Source: a virus. From it: a DNA stretch of 42,171 nt. The stretch is from positions 1 to 42,171 of the IMG/VR virus record IMGVR_UViG_3300021440_000054; one strand, given 5' to 3'. The notes beneath the pieces are model-generated. The model searched no databases and had not been told where the DNA came from. It saw only the letters and a list, made by a program, of their open reading frames with translations. How positions within the stretch are numbered: position 1 is the stretch's first letter; the number at the start of each line of letters is the position of its first letter. Below, piece by piece: positions 6,083-42,171 of the stretch. The position numbers and the translations under genes were made by a program.

Positions 6083-6511
6083 ATGGCCGCTGGTGCATGG
6101 ACCTTTCCAAACTCCGCTCGAACCGACTTACTCAACGGCACGTTTGATTTAGACACCGATACCTTCCTTATTGCGCTGTTTCTCTCGACTTCCAATATAG
6201 GCGCGGCCAGCACGACCTATGCTGGCGTGACCAACGAACACGCGAACGCGAACGGGTACACCACGGGCGGGTTTTCCTTAGGAGCGCTGACGCTGGCCGG
6301 TACGACGACGGTGACGGTCGATGATCCGGCTGACGCGGTGTGGACGGCCTCTGGCGGGTCCATCGTGGCGCGGTATGCCGTCATTTACGAATCTGCCGGG
6401 CGGGTGCTGTGCTATTGCCTGCTTGATAGTACGCCTGCCGATGTCACGGTGACTTCAGGTAATACGTTGACCATTGCCTTTAACGCAAGCGGGATATTCA
6501 CCTTGGCCTAA
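6083..6511 (+). CDS. Small beta-rich phage structural protein
   Basis: 142 aa. The layout LLNGTFDLDTDTFLIALFLS ... NGYTTGGFSLGALTL ... DAVWTASGGSIVARYAVIYE ... GNTLTIAFNASGIFTLA matches a widespread family of small phage proteins, usually annotated only as structural or hypothetical, found near tail and fibre genes in sipho- and podophages. The likely role is a virion surface or fibre-associated beta-sandwich. The ribosome binding site GGGGAGAG precedes ATG 6083. Confidence 0.75.
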   Translation: MAAGAWTFPNSARTDLLNGTFDLDTDTFLIALFLSTSNIGAASTTYAGVTNEHANANGYTTGGFSLGALTLAGTTTVTVDDPADAVWTASGGSIVARYAVIYESAGRVLCYCLLDSTPADVTVTSGNTLTIAFNASGIFTLA

Positions 6512-6540
6512 ATGGTAAGCGTCCCTTGAGGAGGAACGTT

Positions 6541-6882
6541 ATGTCTAGACGGTATATGTGGGGTGTACTACTAGCAGTATGTCTTCCCTCTGTGTGTATG
6601 GCCACGACAGCCAGTTGGGACGCGGTAAGCGATCCTGAATTGCAAGGATACCGGCTCTATCGTGCCACGGGGTCCTGCGTCACGCCTGGCGCGTTTGCGA
6701 CAGTCAATACCTATGGCACGGTGACAACTGGGATCGTAACGAATCCCACCACGAACGGGACTTACTGTCACAGATTAACAGCTTTTAATTCCGCTGGCGA
6801 ATCACCCTTTTCTAATATGGTGGAGTTCAAGTATGTGGTGGTCCCTCCCCTTGCCCCTCAAAATCTCAGTGTCAGACCTTGA
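6541..6882 (+). CDS. Exported fibronectin type III-like protein
   Basis: 113 aa from ATG 6541, chosen because AGGAGG lies at 6529-6534. The N-terminus is a Sec-type signal (SRR, then hydrophobic MWGVLLAVCLPSVC, cleavage likely after CMA). The mature part is one FN3-like beta sandwich: ASWDAVSDPELQGYRLYR ... YCHRLTAFNSAGESPFSN. It ends with a Pro-rich tail, PPLAPQNLSVRP, that looks like the start of a second FN3 unit cut short. FN3 domains on phage virions usually bind carbohydrate surfaces weakly. It is the first of five putative surface proteins here with signal peptides. Confidence 0.75.
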   Translation: MSRRYMWGVLLAVCLPSVCMATTASWDAVSDPELQGYRLYRATGSCVTPGAFATVNTYGTVTTGIVTNPTTNGTYCHRLTAFNSAGESPFSNMVEFKYVVVPPLAPQNLSVRP

Positions 6883-6947
6883 GGGGCCTCAAGCGGTGGC
6901 GGTGTTTGCATTGTAAGGATCATATGAACTAACGCAAGGAGAATGAC

Positions 6948-7526
6948 ATGAGTGTTGGATATTGGGAAACATTAGCAACGGTTGCGGCAGATGGGACGGC
7001 ATTGACGGCGGCGGCACGGGCGAGCTTGCTCCAGGGTAGCGCAAAGGCTGGCCTCTATACGCTCCCGGCCAACAAGCTGAGGATCGGTGACGTACTCCAC
7101 CTTCGTGCTTCAGGCCGTATTTCGTGCGTGGTGACGACGCCAGGGTCCATCACGTTTGACCTCTCGGCGGGTGTGGGCGGGACGGCGTTTTTCTCGTCTG
7201 CCGTCATCCCGTTGAACATCGTCGCCAAGACCAACGTGCCGTGGATCTTGGATGTTGAGATGATTGTCCGAGCCGTCGGCAACGCGGCTAATTTGTTTGG
7301 CCAGGGATTCTGGCTGTCTGAGGCCGCCCTCAACGTGGCGGTACCATCGACCGGCCCAGGCCCAGGCGGTAATACCTTGCCCTACAATACGGCTCCGGTG
7401 GTGGGTAGTAACGTCGATTTCTCGATTGCGAATATCATTGATTTCAATTTCACCCAGACCGTGGCCACAGGCAGCGTCACGTTACACAACTACTGCTTGT
7501 CGCTGAAAACCTCGACTGGATTCTAG
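6948..7526 (+). CDS. Putative virion structural protein; donor of duplicated segment
   Basis: 192 aa, beta-rich. An N-terminal helix (TALTAAARASLLQGSAK) precedes PANKLRIGDVLHLRASGRIS at about residues 40-59, the start of a jelly-roll-like domain; the C-terminus carries NIIDFNFTQTVATGSVTLHN, typical of small phage fibre or head proteins. Bases 7065-7141 recur at about 83% identity at 29846-29922, where they form the N-terminus of an early protein. The ribosome binding site AAGGAG is upstream. Likely a virion surface protein; no precise name is possible. Confidence 0.7.
   Translation: MSVGYWETLATVAADGTALTAAARASLLQGSAKAGLYTLPANKLRIGDVLHLRASGRISCVVTTPGSITFDLSAGVGGTAFFSSAVIPLNIVAKTNVPWILDVEMIVRAVGNAANLFGQGFWLSEAALNVAVPSTGPGPGGNTLPYNTAPVVGSNVDFSIANIIDFNFTQTVATGSVTLHNYCLSLKTSTGF
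7065..7141 (+). repeat. Segment duplicated in early region (copy A)
   Basis: Gapless match to 29846-29922 over 77 bp with about 13 mismatches. The last 27 bp (7115-7141) are identical to 29896-29922. The same reading frame is kept in both places. Confidence 0.9.
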
Positions 7527-8009: not shown

Positions 8010-9422
8010 ATGTCTCTGAGCGCAGGCGTCAGCACATTCGCAGCGGTGACTGCCACCACAACCGTCACGACTAGCGGAGTGGCGACGCAAGCCAGCGGTT
8101 CAGGGATCTACCTCGCATATTCATTTACGGCGACGTCAACATTTTCATCAATTGGAGATAATAAAGGGAATAGCTATCAACGTGTCGGTTCAGAACAAAC
8201 CGATGTCGGAGGATCGTTAAAATCGGGTGTCTTTTATTGCCCAAACGCTGCGGGAGGATCTGGCCACACAGCAACATTGACCGTCACAGGTAGCGCCGGT
8301 CTCCTGTTGAGTATCGTAGAACTTAAAACAACGAATGGCGCGGGGATTCTCGTCGATCAAGCGACTCAAGGGACCGATGACACTTCAGCCTACACCTCAC
8401 CCAATATCACGACCACAATAGCCAACGAAATTCTCACCGCGTACACGGGCGAGGATTCATCCTTTTCAACGGTCAATCATACTGCTGGGAACTCGTTTGT
8501 CCTGCAAGTTGAAGATACAGACACGGCGATCTGGACAGGCGCGGTAGGAACTCGCGTCGTATCGTCCACAGGGACCTATAATAGTTCCTGGACCATGACC
8601 GGAACGATCAACCACACCAACCAGCATATTGCCTCATTTAGCGAAGTGGCTGGAGGCGTCCTTCCTCCAAGTCCTGCCTTCCGCATGCGGTCTCCCAATC
8701 GTACCCCATTTAAGCGGCGAGGTATTCGGGCCAGCCCCGGTATTGTTGGTCGGGATGATACCAATACTGCCAATATCCCGGACGAGGGCCAGACTGCCAA
8801 CCGCTCCAGGTTTGGGTGGAGTCCGTCACGCCGTCCGCAGATGCGCCGTGGCCGGCGTGCGAGCGCGGCGGCACCAGAGATCATAACTAGCGTTATATTG
8901 ACACCCAGTACTGCAACTCTCACGCTCACAGCGTTTTCGCCCACAGTCTTGACGCCTGTGGTGGTCACGCCAGACATCGCCTCGTTGACGCTGACGGCCT
9001 TTGCGCCAACAGTCTTAACCACTGTGATGGTTATTCCGGATCTGGCAACCCTTGCCCTCACAGCATTTCCCCCAACAGTTCTCACGCCGGTCATAGTTGT
9101 TCCTGACATAGCAGCCTTGACGCTGACGGCCTTTGCGCCGTCCGTCATCGTGGGCGGTGGGGTGGTCCTTACGCCTGACCCGGCGAGTTTAATCCTAACA
9201 GCCTACCCCCCTCTTGTGAGCGGAGGAGGCACTGCTTCCATGGCCGGGGTGGTGCCCATTCGGTATGTCGTTGGAGAGACGGCGAATGTCGTGCCAGTGG
9301 AGACTGTGACCGTGTGGGAGCCTGGGGTTGTCTCTGTGCGTGAACAGGTCGGTCCGGCCAATGTCGTGCCGGTACGTGAAGCTCCAGGGGAAACTCCACG
9401 GGTCAAGGTGTTGGTGGTGTAG
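8010..9422 (+). CDS. Repeat-containing virion surface protein
   Basis: 470 aa in three parts. Residues 1 to about 215 form a beta-sandwich rich in Thr/Ser/Gly, of a type common in phage fibres. Residues about 220-290 are Arg/Pro-rich and basic (RMRSPNRTPFKRRGIRASPG). Residues about 295-407 hold five imperfect repeats of about 20 residues with core xPDxAxLTLTAFAPTVxxxV, followed by a valine-rich tail. The start at 8010 follows the previous stop by 1 nt with a weak ribosome binding site, so translational coupling is likely. Probable adhesion or shaft protein. Confidence 0.7.
   Translation: MSLSAGVSTFAAVTATTTVTTSGVATQASGSGIYLAYSFTATSTFSSIGDNKGNSYQRVGSEQTDVGGSLKSGVFYCPNAAGGSGHTATLTVTGSAGLLLSIVELKTTNGAGILVDQATQGTDDTSAYTSPNITTTIANEILTAYTGEDSSFSTVNHTAGNSFVLQVEDTDTAIWTGAVGTRVVSSTGTYNSSWTMTGTINHTNQHIASFSEVAGGVLPPSPAFRMRSPNRTPFKRRGIRASPGIVGRDDTNTANIPDEGQTANRSRFGWSPSRRPQMRRGRRASAAAPEIITSVILTPSTATLTLTAFSPTVLTPVVVTPDIASLTLTAFAPTVLTTVMVIPDLATLALTAFPPTVLTPVIVVPDIAALTLTAFAPSVIVGGGVVLTPDPASLILTAYPPLVSGGGTASMAGVVPIRYVVGETANVVPVETVTVWEPGVVSVREQVGPANVVPVREAPGETPRVKVLVV
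8893..9230 (+). repeat. Five coding tandem repeats of about 60-66 bp
   Basis: Imperfect in-frame repeats inside the preceding gene, each encoding a variant of TPDIASLTLTAFAPTV. The DNA copies have diverged at third positions, so the array is not recent. The unit number could vary between related phages. Confidence 0.7.
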
Positions 9423-28561: not shown

Positions 28562-28851
28562 ATGAAGAAGGGTGATTACATTATTTGCCGGACCTATTCG
28601 GCTGGCGTGTTTGTGGCACATTGGTGTCGCGTACAGGTAAAGAGGTTGAACTGAAAAATGCGCGGCGGCTGTGGTATTGGGACGGGGCGGCCTCACTCTC
28701 GCAGCTCTCACAAGAAGGGGTGAAGGCTCCGCAGAACTGCAAATTTCCCTGCGATGTGCCAACGGTACTACTCACAGAGGCGATCGAATTGTTGCCAGTT
28801 AGTAAAAAAGCGAAGAAATCTATTATGGGGGTTCCAGTATGGGCTCGGTAG
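28562..28851 (+). pseudogene. DUF6948-like protein, single-base frameshift
   Basis: ATG 28562 has a GGAGG ribosome binding site and reads MKKGDYIICRTYSAGVFVAH before a stop 30 codons in. The family continuation GTLVSRTGKEVELKNARRLW ... WDGAASLSQLSQEGVK ... CKFPCDVPTVLLTEAIELLP is found in the -1 frame and runs to 28851. Joining at the GTGGCAC around 28611-28617 (one G more, GTGGGCAC, would restore the frame) gives a full protein of about 96 aa. No canonical slippery heptamer is seen, so a base deletion or a sequencing error in a G-run is more likely than programmed frameshifting. Function of the family unknown. Confidence 0.7.
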
Positions 28852-28976
28852 GCGCTGGCGCTGGCGCTGGCGCTGGCTATGGCGCTGGCTATGGCTATGG
28901 CGCTGGCGCTGGCGCTAGCTATGGCACTGGCGATGGCGCTGGCGCTGGCGATTGCGCTGGCGCTGGCGCTGGATAA
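28839..28976 (+). CDS. Silk-like Gly-Ala repeat microprotein
   Basis: 45 aa, starting MGSVGAGAGAGAGYGAGYGY and continuing with GAGAG, GTGDG and GDCAG units: alternate residues are Gly and the others mostly Ala with some Tyr, Asp, Ser and one Cys. The pattern matches fibroin-type (GA)n sequence. At DNA level it is an imperfect GGCGCT hexamer array. A G-run (28826-28831) precedes ATG 28839, and the start overlaps the end of the upstream gene in another frame. It could form beta-sheet aggregates; real translation is not proven. Confidence 0.5.
   Translation: MGSVGAGAGAGAGYGAGYGYGAGAGASYGTGDGAGAGDCAGAGAG
28857..28972 (+). repeat. GGCGCT hexanucleotide array
   Basis: About 19 units of GGC-NNN in phase, most of them GGCGCT, with TAT, GAT, ACT, AGC and TGC variants. 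The region is nearly free of other sequence. Such an array can expand or contract by slippage and may also be misassembled by short reads. Confidence 0.85.
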
Positions 28977-28996
28977 TATATCGTTGGGGGTGTCAT

Positions 28997-29219: not shown

Positions 29220-29840
29220 ATGGATAGCAAATCACTCGCAGTACTCGAATCGGCGAACGCGCTGACAATCAAGGTCGCGCCAGACCGGCAGAAAGCGGCG
29301 GATCTCTGGGACGCAATCAGAGCCTTTCGCAAACAGGAAGAGGCGAACAAAGAGACGGTGTGCCGTCCACTCAAAACCGCCTGGGATGAGGCCAAAGTCC
29401 CGTTTGATGAGTTTATTAAGAAGTGCCAGGACGCCGAAAAGAAAATGCAGGCGGCCATGAGCACATGGGACCGTGAACAGGACCGGCTGGCTCAGATCGA
29501 GCAAGTCAAGATCCAAGCGAAGATAGACGCTGATAACGCGAAGAAGCTCGCCAAGGCAGAAGAGAAAGGGAAGGACCTGTCAGAGGTAGCATTGAAGGTC
29601 GCGCCGGTGGTGCAGGCTCCGGCCAAAAGTATTGAGACACAAGCTGGAACGACACAAACGCGCTCCACAAAGAAGGTCTACAAACCGAAAGACCTGAAGA
29701 GTCTCATGACGGCGTTCCCTGACCTGTTTGAATTATCCATGCCAAAGTTCAACGCATTGGCGAAGACCGGCATGCTAGACGGTCGGGCCGATGTCGAGAT
29801 CAGTGAAGAGTATATCTATCAACAGAGAGGACCAGCATGA
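29220..29840 (+). CDS. Coiled-coil early protein next to recombination genes
   Basis: 206 aa, AAGGAGG ribosome binding site. Residues about 20-120 are helical (KAADLWDAIRAFRKQEEANK, AQIEQVKIQAKIDADNAKKL), followed by a linker and a C-terminal globular part (DLKSLMTAFPDLFELSMPKF...YIYQQRG). Proteins of this layout are commonly found just before exonuclease/annealing genes in phages, usually unnamed. It may bind DNA or a partner nuclease, but I see no catalytic motif. Confidence 0.7.
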   Translation: MDSKSLAVLESANALTIKVAPDRQKAADLWDAIRAFRKQEEANKETVCRPLKTAWDEAKVPFDEFIKKCQDAEKKMQAAMSTWDREQDRLAQIEQVKIQAKIDADNAKKLAKAEEKGKDLSEVALKVAPVVQAPAKSIETQAGTTQTRSTKKVYKPKDLKSLMTAFPDLFELSMPKFNALAKTGMLDGRADVEISEEYIYQQRGPA

Positions 29841-30064
29841 ACATTCCAGCCAACAAATTGAGGATTGGTGAAGTCTTGCGCCTGCGGGCCTCAGTCCGTA
29901 TTTCGTGCGTGGTGACGACGCCGTTAAAGATGGACACCTATGCCGACTTGCGCCGACAGTTACAGGGCAATGATGCGACATTCCTGCTAGATGTGACATC
30001 GCAGATGTCACCGGATGAGCCATTAGGAGTCAAGAAATACATTAACAATGAAGGCGAGGTGTAG
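29837..30064 (+). CDS. Chimeric early microprotein
   Basis: 75 aa, ATGA overlap with the upstream gene. Residues 4-29 (PANKLRIGEVLRLRASVRIS and the next six residues) match residues 40-65 of the structural protein at 6948-7526, and the DNA under them matches at about 83%. The rest (DTYADLRRQLQGNDATFLLD ... GVKKYINNEGEV) is unrelated and could start on its own at ATG 29930. The simplest reading is a small early gene that gained a new N-terminus from a virion gene. It lies directly before the exonuclease gene. Confidence 0.65.
   Translation: MNIPANKLRIGEVLRLRASVRISCVVTTPLKMDTYADLRRQLQGNDATFLLDVTSQMSPDEPLGVKKYINNEGEV
29846..29922 (+). repeat. Segment duplicated from structural gene (copy B)
   Basis: Match to 7065-7141, gapless, 27 identical bases at the right end. 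The right boundary of similarity is sharp (29922/29923), 7 nt before the internal ATG at 29930. Confidence 0.9.
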
Positions 30065-30065
30065 C

Positions 30066-30629
30066 ATGCTCAGCGTTGACCGAGAGAAACCGCGTCACTA
30101 CGGCGACGAGCATGGCCGCTACTGGTCTGTCTCGCAAGTCTGTGATGTGGTGTCTGGCGGGTGCAATTACTACGCGCCAGGGGCGTCGGAACGTGGGCAA
30201 GATTTGCATGATATCTTTGCCCTCGCAGTGGGGAATTATGCTGGTCTCTGCATGCTGCCCGACGTGCTAGAGCAGTATACAGGTTACTACAACGCGATGA
30301 TCGAGTTCATATCCTGGGCTAAGCCGGTTCCGTCATCGATTGAAAAGATGATGAAGCATAAAACGTACCCCTATGCTGGCCGGCCAGACTTTATTGGATC
30401 AATAGCCGATGAGTTCGGGGTGCTGGACCTGAAGACAGGGAATCCCCAGAGGTGGCACATGGTCCAGATCCACGGCTACCAAAAGATGCTGGATAAGGCG
30501 GCGAAGATGTGGATTCTGTATATCAACGATGAGGGGAAATTCCAGTTTAAAGCGGTGAAGCCGAGCGTGCGAGATTGGGCAGTATTTCAGAACGGATTAT
30601 CAATTCTACAGTGGAGGGAGGGCGCATGA
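30066..30629 (+). CDS. PD-(D/E)XK exonuclease, RecB/Cas4-like
   Basis: 187 aa from ATG 30066 (GGCGAGGTG upstream). The core motif is YAGRPDFIG...GVLDLKTG with Asp108, Asp121 and Lys123; a QIHGYQ motif follows (Gln134, Tyr138: the Q-x3-Y of RecB-type nucleases), and His48 lies in RGQDLHDI. This is the phage 5'-3' exonuclease type that makes 3' ssDNA for annealing. The next gene is an ERF annealing protein with overlapping stop/start, so the two form a recombination pair. The phage may use it for end repair or recombination-dependent replication. Confidence 0.85.
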   Translation: MLSVDREKPRHYGDEHGRYWSVSQVCDVVSGGCNYYAPGASERGQDLHDIFALAVGNYAGLCMLPDVLEQYTGYYNAMIEFISWAKPVPSSIEKMMKHKTYPYAGRPDFIGSIADEFGVLDLKTGNPQRWHMVQIHGYQKMLDKAAKMWILYINDEGKFQFKAVKPSVRDWAVFQNGLSILQWREGA

Positions 30630-31351
30630 AGATCTATAACGCAGTGTCGAAGGTTGCAGGTGTGCTCGCAAAGGAAGGTGTAAGCAAGGATCGCAGCAAC
30701 CAACAGCAAGGCTACAAGTTTCGAGGTATTGACGATTGTTTGAACGCGCTCGCGCCGGTGCTGGCAGAGCATGGGGTGATTATCTATCCTGAAGTCCTAG
30801 AACGAGAGCAGGTTGAACGGGCGGCCAAGCATGGCGGGGCTCTTTTCTACACTACAGTCAAGGTCAAGTACACCTTTGCTGCCGATGATGGTTCGAGCTT
30901 CCAGGTCGTAACCTACGGGGAGGCGATGGACAGCGCCGACAAGGCCACGAACAAGGCCATGAGCGCAGCGTATAAATACGCCGTGATTCAAACCTTCTGC
31001 ATCCCGACAGAGGGCGATAACGACGCGGACGCACACACACATGAGGTGGTCGCGCAATCTACGAAGGCGTCCACAGCAAGAGCCGCGAATGCGAAGAAGG
31101 TGCAAACACTGCAACCCCCCAAGCAATCCACGCCTACAACTGCGAGTATTGGTGACGTGCAATGGAATGAATTCCTGGACTATGCCGGTGATGACCCAGA
31201 CCGGATGGACGTGATTGCGCAACTCAAGGAGGTGCTCGCCATTGGCATGGTGGCAGACCTGACCGGCGAGGCGCGGAAGAGTTTCATTCTAGAATTCCAG
31301 AAATCCTGCAAGGACACGGGCGTACCGTGTGAGGAGTGGGTGAAACCATGA
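30626..31351 (+). CDS. ERF family single-strand annealing protein
   Basis: 241 aa from ATG 30626, GGAGGGAGG ribosome binding site. The ERF core is QQQGYKFRGIDDCLNALAPV ... VTYGEAMDSADKATNKAMSA and AAYKYAVIQTFCIPTEGDND, matching the P22 Erf family. The C-terminal third is a linker plus a helical tail (NEFLDYAGDDPDRMDVIAQL). It anneals complementary single strands made by the nuclease upstream; in P22-like phages it circularises genomes with terminal redundancy, which fits the repeat at the ends here. Confidence 0.92.
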   Translation: MKIYNAVSKVAGVLAKEGVSKDRSNQQQGYKFRGIDDCLNALAPVLAEHGVIIYPEVLEREQVERAAKHGGALFYTTVKVKYTFAADDGSSFQVVTYGEAMDSADKATNKAMSAAYKYAVIQTFCIPTEGDNDADAHTHEVVAQSTKASTARAANAKKVQTLQPPKQSTPTTASIGDVQWNEFLDYAGDDPDRMDVIAQLKEVLAIGMVADLTGEARKSFILEFQKSCKDTGVPCEEWVKP

Positions 31352-37948: not shown

Positions 37949-38125
37949 TTACAGTGGAAAGCCTCTGCCAGTAGCGAATGATTCAAGATCTGCCAGTAAT
38001 TCACGTTCGCTTGCGTACCATGCCCCTATTTGTGCATGTGTTTCTCCATCGATAAAGGACCATCCGCACCGCGGCGACCGGCGATACAGTAGGCCCTTGA
38101 ACCGTGTTTTTTTGAGAAAGTTCAT
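37949..38125 (-). CDS. Small protein upstream of ardC
   Basis: 58 aa from ATG at 38125, AGGAGG at 38131-38136. Basic N-terminal half (NFLKKTRFKGLLYRRSPRCG) and C-terminal WYASERELLADLESFA. The frame is open upstream, but the longer version lacks a ribosome binding site. Probably co-transcribed with ArdC. No family recognised. Confidence 0.65.
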   Translation of the reverse strand: MNFLKKTRFKGLLYRRSPRCGWSFIDGETHAQIGAWYASERELLADLESFATGRGFPL

Positions 38126-38456: not shown

Positions 38457-38689
38457 GTAGTAGCCTAGCCCTCGGCGTTCTCCTTGTGGCCTTCTTTCCC
38501 GTCTCATCCCGATATCACTCTAGGTACAACGCCTGAGATGAGCTGTAGCGAGAACGGGTGCCGCAAGTGGAAGCGGGACGATCTTACTCCCTTCTTCGCT
38601 ATTTCTCTCTCTTGTCAGTGTATGTCGAGCTATTGTCCATCCTTTGTGGTATCATTCTTGTCTGCCCTATGAAATCAAGAGGTTATCTC

Positions 38690-40300: not shown

Positions 40301-41954
40301 AGCCCTCCGCACCATCGTGGAACGCCTCGGGAATCAAGCGGGCGTCCTGTGTTGCGCGGTGTTGCTTGATCTTCCAGAACGACACCCTGACGCCGACGGA
40401 TTAGACGCGGCAGGCCGGAGTATCTTCCTCGTAGGCAGGCATTTCCTGGGCGATCACGAAATCGGGCATGCGGCGGCGGAGAAGATCTTACAGCAGCTTC
40501 GGGAGGGCCATGTGACGGATGCGGTCCACCTCATCCTGATGGCTCCACAAGCAAGCCTCGGGATTGCCGCCGCCATAGAAACCTCAGCGAAGCGCGAAGA
40601 AATTCTTCTTCATGGCCCGCGCGGCACCGGGAAGACGCATGCCCTCGCCGCCGCTGCCATTATTGCCGCCGAACTGCATGCGCGCGCCGGGTATCCGCTT
40701 CCGTTCAAAGTCTCCTGGCTGCACGACTCCTTGCGATCCGCCAGTGCGAAAACCGCAGAATCCTTGAAGCTCCATATGTGGGGCGGCCTCTGGGCGATCC
40801 GAGAGGACAACACCAGAGCTATTTTCACTTTGGCCGGGTCAGAGTTGCTCCGTGGCGAATTCATTGGCTGCCGGGACGAAGCGAGCGCCCAGCGGTTACG
40901 GCAGGACGCGCATATGATTTTAGCTGAGGAATTGGTTGCGTCTATGACGGACGGCCTCGGCATTACGCAACAGGAATGGGAGCTGGCGCGATCAAGCGCG
41001 ATCCGGCTGGAAACCCGCCGCCGGTCCGCACTAGCAGCGACCAATCCCGGCTCGCCCGATCTCTGGCCAGCCCCCTACTTCGGGGTCACGCAACCCACCA
41101 TCAACACGCGCACGTCGTTTTCCTTACCCATTACCGACCGGATGAGCCCAGAACAGCAAGCCGTCCACCTGGCCACGTTTAACGGGACGAGTTCCATGCA
41201 CCGGCGTCTAGGCCGTGGGGAATGGGTGATGGCGGAAATGGGCTCCCCTGTGGCAGAAGGGTTTGATGAAGGCGTACATGTGTCTCGGGTGCCCCTCCAC
41301 CCTCATCCAAACTTTCTCCTGGGGATTGGATGGGACGGGGGGCACTCCCCTTCGGCGGTTATTGGGCAGAACGTGGCCGGCCAGATCCAAGTCTTTGCCG
41401 CACTCAACAAGATGCAAGCTGGAGTCTTGGAGCTGATTGAACGCGATGTACTTCCCTGGCTCACCACCTTTGCGCCGTGGGCCTTGAAAGATTTTGGGGC
41501 CTCGCTGGTGCATATCATTGACCCGAATATGGCGACGCCCGGACAAGCCACGATCCTAGAGACGGCTGAGAAAATGATTCGTAAACACCTGGGAGGCCGC
41601 GTGATTCGTGGGGCCGTCCGTTGGCCCCCTCGGCGTGAGGCCGTGCTGAAGGCGCTGGGGCCTGGGCATGCCCAAGGGCGGGTGCCGCTCCGCATCTCCC
41701 CTGGGCCTGATACGGAGTTACTGGTCTACGCCTATCAAGGACGGTGGTTTTACAAGATGGCGGATCAGCAAGTGGACCGTACGAAGCCCGAGAAACCCAA
41801 TTCACCGTGGGCGGACATTGGAGACGCCTCGGCGTATCTCCTGGACTGGTTGCAGGGGGGCGAGGGAATGGACGTAGCCCCGCGTGACATGAAGGTGGAA
41901 TATGGCGTGAACTGGGAATCTCACGGCTCACGCGACTATGCGTATAGGGGGTAA
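40293..41954 (+). CDS. terL: Large terminase subunit (TerL)
   Basis: 553 aa. ATPase Walker A GPRGTGKT at residues 108-115; the Walker B region is MILAEELVA, where the usual Asp-Glu pair appears as Glu-Glu. The C-terminal RNase H-like nuclease has Asp348 (GIGWDGGHSP), Asp410 (HIIDPNM) and Asp511 (GDASAYLLDWL) as the likely metal-binding triad. The unusual N-terminal 100 residues include a Cys pair (VLCCAVLL). It cuts concatemeric DNA and pumps it through the portal. The gene runs into the terminal repeat and is followed by the small gene at 41957 and then the portal. Confidence 0.93.
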   Translation: MSKALRTIVERLGNQAGVLCCAVLLDLPERHPDADGLDAAGRSIFLVGRHFLGDHEIGHAAAEKILQQLREGHVTDAVHLILMAPQASLGIAAAIETSAKREEILLHGPRGTGKTHALAAAAIIAAELHARAGYPLPFKVSWLHDSLRSASAKTAESLKLHMWGGLWAIREDNTRAIFTLAGSELLRGEFIGCRDEASAQRLRQDAHMILAEELVASMTDGLGITQQEWELARSSAIRLETRRRSALAATNPGSPDLWPAPYFGVTQPTINTRTSFSLPITDRMSPEQQAVHLATFNGTSSMHRRLGRGEWVMAEMGSPVAEGFDEGVHVSRVPLHPHPNFLLGIGWDGGHSPSAVIGQNVAGQIQVFAALNKMQAGVLELIERDVLPWLTTFAPWALKDFGASLVHIIDPNMATPGQATILETAEKMIRKHLGGRVIRGAVRWPPRREAVLKALGPGHAQGRVPLRISPGPDTELLVYAYQGRWFYKMADQQVDRTKPEKPNSPWADIGDASAYLLDWLQGGEGMDVAPRDMKVEYGVNWESHGSRDYAYRG

Positions 41955-42171
41955 GTATGGCTGAAACAATCGGACGAGCTGCCGCCGCAACATTCACGCT
42001 TGGGTTGAGTGAGGCGGTGCGCCCACTCATTAGTAAACCAAAGATTCGAGGGCCGTCCGTGCCGCAGCCGACCACGGCTCCCAGTACGGAGACGCAAGCG
42101 GTCCAGCAAGCCTCCTCAGAAGCCTCGGCGCGACGGAATAAGGCGCAAGGCTACCGCAGTACGATCCTCCA
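41922..42171. repeat. Terminal direct repeat, right copy
   Basis: Copy of 1-250 with G at 42048 instead of A at 127. See the left copy. The window ends inside this repeat. Confidence 0.95.
41957..42171 (+). CDS. Small hypothetical protein (partial, copy of 36-293)
   Basis: Second appearance of the gene at 36-293, cut by the window end after 215 bases. The only coding difference is Arg31 (CGA) for Gln31 (CAA). In a circular or terminally redundant molecule this is the same gene or a second copy at the other end. Confidence 0.85.
   Translation, partial: MAETIGRAAAATFTLGLSEAVRPLISKPKIRGPSVPQPTTAPSTETQAVQQASSEASARRNKAQGYRSTIL

Follow-up and report, generated by a model that had tools for sequence, protein, structure and literature searches.

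Accessory 'moron' cassettes in phage genomes are known to decay. Gad2, a phage protein to which the locus described below is related, is covered as a Gabija anti-defence protein in PMC11263360 and PMC12904381, and its mechanism is described as not yet elucidated in the latter. With respect to the recombination of diverged DNA, PMC3945230 reports that the Erf/Exo pair of phage D3 equalled lambda Red in its efficiency on DNA of 78% identity, and a lambda Red study gives homeologous and illegitimate events about equal shares in phage mosaicism (PMC2327257); illegitimate events are considered much rarer in PMC3945230.

The locus lies in the IMG/VR virus record IMGVR_UViG_3300021440_000054, which we analysed over its whole length of 42,171 nucleotides and refer to as the window. 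The window probably represents a complete phage genome, either circular or terminally redundant, because its first 250 bp (1-250) recur as an identical direct repeat at its end (41922-42171). Like decaying moron cassettes, the locus has an accessory gene between core genes that is present, absent or decayed in relatives; unlike them, its decayed copy holds a foreign coding patch and its frame stays open. It resembles homeologous or illegitimate recombination by Rad52-like recombinases in its small patch, its diverged partner and the exonuclease/Erf pair adjacent to it. It differs from the patches described in PMC2327257, which have a median of 400-500 bp and lie between related regions, in that a 77-nt piece has been joined in frame into a non-homologous gene 22 kb away. 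In the literature on comparable cases we found no obvious precedent, although a published one may exist. We consider it rather likely that the open reading frame (ORF) at 29837-30064 is a recombination scar, left by a lost accessory gene in an exonuclease/Erf operon. The features of the locus, some of them defined by comparison with two relatives that carry an intact form of the gene (loci L045 and L044), are as follows.

6948..7526, plus strand: P0002, intact gene of the virion module, 192 aa, whose family is the source of the patch
7065..7141, plus strand: segment of P0002 that matches the patch (the strand at residues 49-60 and a flanking loop)
29220..29840, plus strand: upstream neighbour, 206 aa, weakly like phrog_10477 (annotated exonuclease; E = 2.3e-4)
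29827..29830, plus strand: GAGG, Shine-Dalgarno-like, 6 nt ahead of the P0001 start
29837..30064, plus strand: P0001, hybrid ORF of 75 codons, its parts assigned by alignment with the intact relatives
29837..29843, plus strand: ATGAACA, identical over these 7 nt to the start of the intact gene in L045 and L044
29846..29922, plus strand: virion-gene piece in its native frame, equivalent of codons 40-65 of 6948-7526
29896..29922, plus strand: 27-nt identical block running up to the junction, equal to 7115-7141
29924..30043, plus strand: remnant, Gad2-family codons 183-222, with about 82% nucleotide identity to L045 and L044
29930, plus strand: ATG lying inside the Gad2-family remnant
30043..30051, plus strand: site of an in-frame deletion of 69 nt (23 codons) relative to L045 and L044
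30056..30059, plus strand: GAGG, Shine-Dalgarno-like, in the last P0001 codons and 6 nt ahead of the start at 30066
30066..30629 (alternative start 30048), plus strand: downstream neighbour, exonuclease-like (phrog_298, E = 3.6e-12)
30575..31351, plus strand: Erf-type single-strand annealing protein (PF04404, E = 3.5e-23; phrog_155, E = 1.5e-34)

A repeat search of the window aligned 29846-29922 with 7065-7141 over 77 nt, ungapped, at 83% identity. The initial annotation had reported this repeat (about 83%, same reading frame, 27-bp identical end), and the repeat search, the frames and the sequences all agree with it. Each copy keeps the reading frame of its own ORF (P0001 or P0002), and P0001 searched against its own record recovers the virion gene copy (E = 4.5e-11, residues 2-32, 74% identity). 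The two copies are identical at 64 of 77 nucleotides; all 13 mismatches are confined to the first 50 nt, and the 3' end is identical at 27 of 27 positions. Under random scatter, the probability that the last 27 of the 77 positions would escape all 13 mismatches is 0.0019; counted by codons, differences occur in 12 of the first 17 and in none of the following 8 (Fisher p = 0.0016), and the same clustering tested by synonymous sites gives a Fisher value of 0.0039. The 27-nt block is therefore not the product of uniform divergence. When the window's open frames of at least 40 codons were all compared with one another, the 250-bp terminal repeat and antisense readings of the two copies were the only other pairs to reach E ≤ 1e-3. 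Separately, the 470-aa ORF 8010-9422 contains at 8913-9146 an imperfect repeat of 66-nt period in three copies, the later ones 67-74% identical to the first.

The position of P0002 among head and tail genes suggests that it is a virion protein. Its predicted structure is a beta-sandwich (mean pLDDT 81), of which the patch, according to the model, is one strand with its loops, a fragment rather than a domain; P0001 carries 26 of the 192 codons of a P0002-type protein and lacks the full beta-sandwich of about 190 aa. Compared with the PDB, the P0002 fold had only weak matches, to lectins of the beta-sandwich and TNF-like types (best E = 2.8e-4), with TM by query length of at most 0.42 among the best 50 matches; in BFVD it matched uncharacterised Caudovirales proteins (best E about 1e-11). 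P0002 had no match in named phages (E ≤ 1e-3) and no host or prophage counterpart in genome contigs (tblastn, E ≤ 1e-3). Across 18 virion-gene records, 15 had a match to the patch segment, and 16 of 16 matches lie in open frames of at least 184 codons, therefore in ORFs of virion-gene size and none in a short ORF. One record (G011, that of locus L021) has two patch-segment matches, at 37993-38076 and 38572-38652, about 0.6 kb apart on the same strand and both in long open frames; these are probably tandem paralogues of the virion gene.

The remainder of P0001 is explained by its relatives. The genes flanking it are 88% and 80-81% identical in amino acids to those of IMGVR 3300038829_000042, and 86% and 80% identical to those of IMGVR 3300038829_000038. 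In both contigs the interval between the same flanking genes holds an intact 251-codon gene, and these are the loci L045 and L044. A third relative, L065, has a full-length gene of 255 codons (73-74% amino acid identity) among other neighbours, and its start and end resemble those of L045 and L044. When the intact protein was searched against the window record, it gave one match only, at 29921-30052 (residues 182-225, 77%, E = 1.1e-17), and the missing part was not found elsewhere in the window's genome. Codons from about 3 to 182 of the intact gene are gone from the window, and the tail that follows VKKYI in the alignment is 29 codons long in L045 and L044 versus 6 in the window; beyond the 23-codon deletion, the final bases of P0001 are similar to those of the relatives and the stop is shared. 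P0001 as aligned is thus composed of start codons, a virion-gene piece and a remnant of the intact gene. The virion-derived part is an in-frame replacement of 26 codons, and ATGAACA is probably the retained original start, a weak assignment with only 4 nt past the ATG.

These alignments alter what had been concluded about the downstream half. It had been taken for an early microprotein, and is instead the C-terminal remnant of a 251-codon gene whose core is gone. The ATG at 29930, put forward as a candidate start, is present; it has no such role in the intact relatives, all three of which (L045, L044 and L065) run through it within a gene of 251-255 codons, and by this alignment it is an internal methionine of a larger gene rather than an old start. 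An independent microprotein starting at 29930 was rejected, and no short homologue was found. As for the proposed fusion of structural-module and early-region genes more than 22 kb apart, the joining itself holds, and the gain of a domain by a working small protein does not: because the downstream half is a remnant of a 251-codon gene, the event was a deletion or replacement that left a truncated gene.

The intact gene matched phrog_18122 (E = 1e-45) and phrog_4400 (E = 4.3e-37), more weakly phrog_1614 'nucleotidyltransferase' (E = 4.2e-7), and nothing in Pfam or NCBIfam. Using tblastn, we found matches to the intact protein in 227 phage records, the best being Gad2 of Bacillus phages SPbetaL7/SPbetaL6 (38.5% over residues 1-198, E = 7e-33). 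A GG...DxD pattern, which we take to be a nucleotidyltransferase motif, is present in 6 of 6 aligned members (L045, L044, L065, Gad2, GAP32_076 and phiA047_143), and these similarities place the intact gene, together with Gad2, in a nucleotidyltransferase-like family. Gad2 has 400 aa, versus 251-255 aa in the intact relatives, and since its C-terminal half of about 200 aa has no counterpart there, anti-Gabija activity is not to be presumed for the 251-aa proteins. P0001 keeps codons 183-222 of the relatives' gene and has neither the N-terminal domain similarity nor the GG...DxD region; its kinship with the family appears only through L045. Judged by what is retained, P0001 is a remnant of the Gad2 family and not a functional member of it. 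No part of the predicted catalytic core remains, so the enzymatic activity predicted for the original protein must be lost from the hybrid. An AlphaFold model of the Gad2-family protein, built from three sequences, had a mean pLDDT of 41 and was not taken into a fold search. Sequence searches of the PDB returned nothing useful, one having no match and another only two proteasome chains (E = 0.14 and 0.63).

We also considered whether the segment shared with the virion gene could be an ancient domain common to the early protein's own family, the alternative that the initial annotation had set against its own proposal. Homologues of the downstream part were compared as it had suggested, and the N-terminal segment is absent from every one: it is missing from L045, L044, L065, Gad2, GAP32_076 and phiA047_143, and its 16 matches all lie in frames of virion-gene size. 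We discarded this reading, the chance of which we put at next to nil.

In loci L071, L072 and L073, the upstream gene (56-61% identity) is followed immediately by an ORF that its end overlaps, and none of the three has a Gad2-family match; L071 and L072 share the same ORFs in the stretch compared, and the three thus stand for about two lineages. Because these loci have the upstream gene without the Gad2-family gene, the latter is, by gene content, an optional cassette. Between L045 (cassette at 1475-2230) and L044 (4617-5372), the synonymous difference is 0.26 in the cassette versus 0.51 and 0.54 in the flanking genes, which suggests a later exchange for the cassette than for its flanks. In the window, the cassette is cut to a 40-codon remnant with the virion-gene patch. 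The Gad2-family gene of L065 (3001-3768) lies beside nuclease-like and ATPase-like ORFs, as judged by eye, and a cassette of this family may be recurring beside recombination genes.

Several coding repeats were noted in the same loci. At 28827-28988 of the window, a Gly-Ala/Gly-Tyr coding repeat (MGSVGAGAGAGAGYGAGYG...) directly follows an ORF ending ...LTEAIELLPVSKKAKKSI, and L065, in a different phage, has the same arrangement at 1514-1970, a similar ORF end and then a Gly-rich repeat. L071 encodes at 6324-7484 a protein with the degenerate repeat 'ASVRDSVGDSVRASV', to which a 'GEAVHGAVGEAVDGAV' stretch at 4798-5895 of L065 is related.

We propose the following history for the scar. The ancestor would have carried a 251-codon Gad2-family cassette between the 206-aa gene and the exonuclease gene. 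Codons from about 3 to 182 would then have been lost and replaced by 26 codons of a virion gene of the 6948-7526 type, with the virion frame kept, and a separate in-frame deletion of 69 nt would have shortened the tail; both the replacement and the tail deletion are seen on comparison with the two intact relatives. The replacement may be a product of error-prone annealing of strands while the phage replicated; the resident exonuclease and Erf annealing protein, encoded next door, would be plausible agents of it. The window indeed encodes an Erf-type annealing protein (PF04404) and an exonuclease (phrog_298); the exonuclease-like gene, whose product also has weak Cas4/PD-(D/E)XK matches, adjoins the scar, and the Erf-type gene lies two genes downstream of it. 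Erf annealing is a step that we infer, because the junctions have little or no homology (at most a few bases in common with the Gad2-family gene), and no homologous 'shoulders' were found at them beyond the 27-nt block inside the patch.

The frame of the scar would stay open mainly because it forms part of a run of closely packed genes. The P0001 start (ATGA) overlaps the stop of the upstream 206-aa gene, its stop sits one base ahead of the start of the exonuclease-like gene, and the GAGG at 30056..30059 is conserved in L045 and L044. Because its ends overlap or abut the neighbouring genes and the downstream Shine-Dalgarno lies inside it, losing the open frame to a frameshift or stop could interfere with exonuclease translation, and a role of the hybrid ORF as a translational relay is possible. 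Three in-frame junctions have a chance of about 1 in 27 under random frames, and they would be accounted for if an open frame keeps the gene chain intact. The remnant has a dN/dS of 0.125 relative to L045, versus 0.129 for the same stretch between the intact genes of L045 and L065, and in this comparison does not show relaxation. With L065 as the third sequence, 6 of the 7 residues that differ between window and L045 are changes seen only in the window, and L045 has no such change of its own, although this is a small sample.

The same observations bear on the possibility that recombination gave birth to a new, working microprotein, whose 75-aa product would function independently; the virion strand might, for example, stabilise a binding helix left over from the Gad2-family tail. 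P0001 has a start with GAGG at 6 nt and three in-frame joints with no stop, joints that are also expected if the protein itself is useful. Its first 17 virion codons differ from the virion copy by 9-10 synonymous versus 3-4 replacement changes; had the donor been the phage's own gene and the divergence followed the fusion, long purifying selection on the hybrid would be implied. However, much or all of this divergence may predate the fusion if the donor was a related phage, and the dN/dS of the remnant, being like that of intact family genes, adds no separate signal. Furthermore, the virion piece is by the structural model one strand with loops of a beta-sandwich rather than a domain, and the hybrid has Val where 20 of 20 virion rows have Gly, a change that may be read as a sign of relaxed constraint after transfer. 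Searches for P0001 were also negative: the whole ORF had no relative in viral contigs, no match in phage records (E ≤ 1), no host or prophage counterpart in genome contigs (tblastn, E ≤ 1e-3) and no match in Pfam or PHROGs (E ≤ 0.1), and a second phage with the same fusion was not found in the viral contigs, phage records or genome contigs. We therefore regard the microprotein as unlikely. Taken jointly with its birth, the further idea that an enzyme of an anti-defence family had its catalytic core swapped for a virion strand and that the 75-aa product was selected, for example for binding an old partner via the Gad2-family tail, is if anything more doubtful.

The junctions of P0001 are known from one assembled virus record, as would be the case for an assembly artefact or a chimera of strains. 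Such an origin is very improbable: the patch and the resident copy have 13 mismatches in 77 positions, the reading frame is kept across the joints, either flank shows synteny with two other contigs, and a ribosome-binding-like GAGG is present at either end.

Finally, we sought the donor of the patch, for which there are two versions, both of them compatible with a recombination scar. In one, the phage copied its own virion gene, the copy diverged, and the 27-nt end later became identical again by gene conversion. The patch matches the window's virion gene at 64 of 78 positions and its homologues at no more than 54 of 78, a comparison that covered 19 of the 40 homologues. The identity of the 27-nt block is not random (p about 0.002-0.004), and a 26-nt string from it has no other copy in the viral contigs, among which near-identical records may have been left out. 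However, in the first 51 nt the advantage is slight, the patch agreeing with the window's gene at 38 of 51 positions, whereas the homologue L001 agrees with that gene at 35 of 51. The synonymous divergence of the patch from the window's virion gene over these 51 nt (0.64) equals that of the window's flanking genes from L045 (0.58-0.62), so a self-copy would have to date from about the split of the window and L045 phages, yet it has few replacements. Later gene conversion of the 27 bp is possible, but a related-phage donor that was itself mosaic accounts equally well for the pattern.

In the other version, the patch came from a related phage in a co-infection, whose virion gene served as donor; the first 50 nt would keep the donor sequence, and the 27-nt block would be either a mosaic patch of the donor or the result of exchange with the resident gene. 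Virion-gene relatives at 65-68% nucleotide identity are present in other viral contigs, and the first 51 nt are nearly saturated with synonymous differences, of which the last 27 have none. The two records with the closest early region (G019 and G020) have no P0002 homologue at E ≤ 10; these modules are therefore exchanged between phages. Among the 19 of 40 virion-gene loci that we compared, none proved to be the actual donor. On these comparisons we lean towards a related-phage donor, which seems somewhat likelier than otherwise, and we regard the self-copy as a possible but less probable source.

Taken together, the region presents one locus in three states with flanking synteny, without a cassette, with an intact Gad2-family cassette, and with a patched 40-codon remnant. 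If it is a recombination scar as we propose, it offers a concrete case of how accessory genes of anti-defence type are lost from phages, and a concrete case of very short ectopic coding transfer in a phage with an Erf/exonuclease pair. It also calls for caution with short 'early' phage ORFs, which can be recombination scars and not genes.
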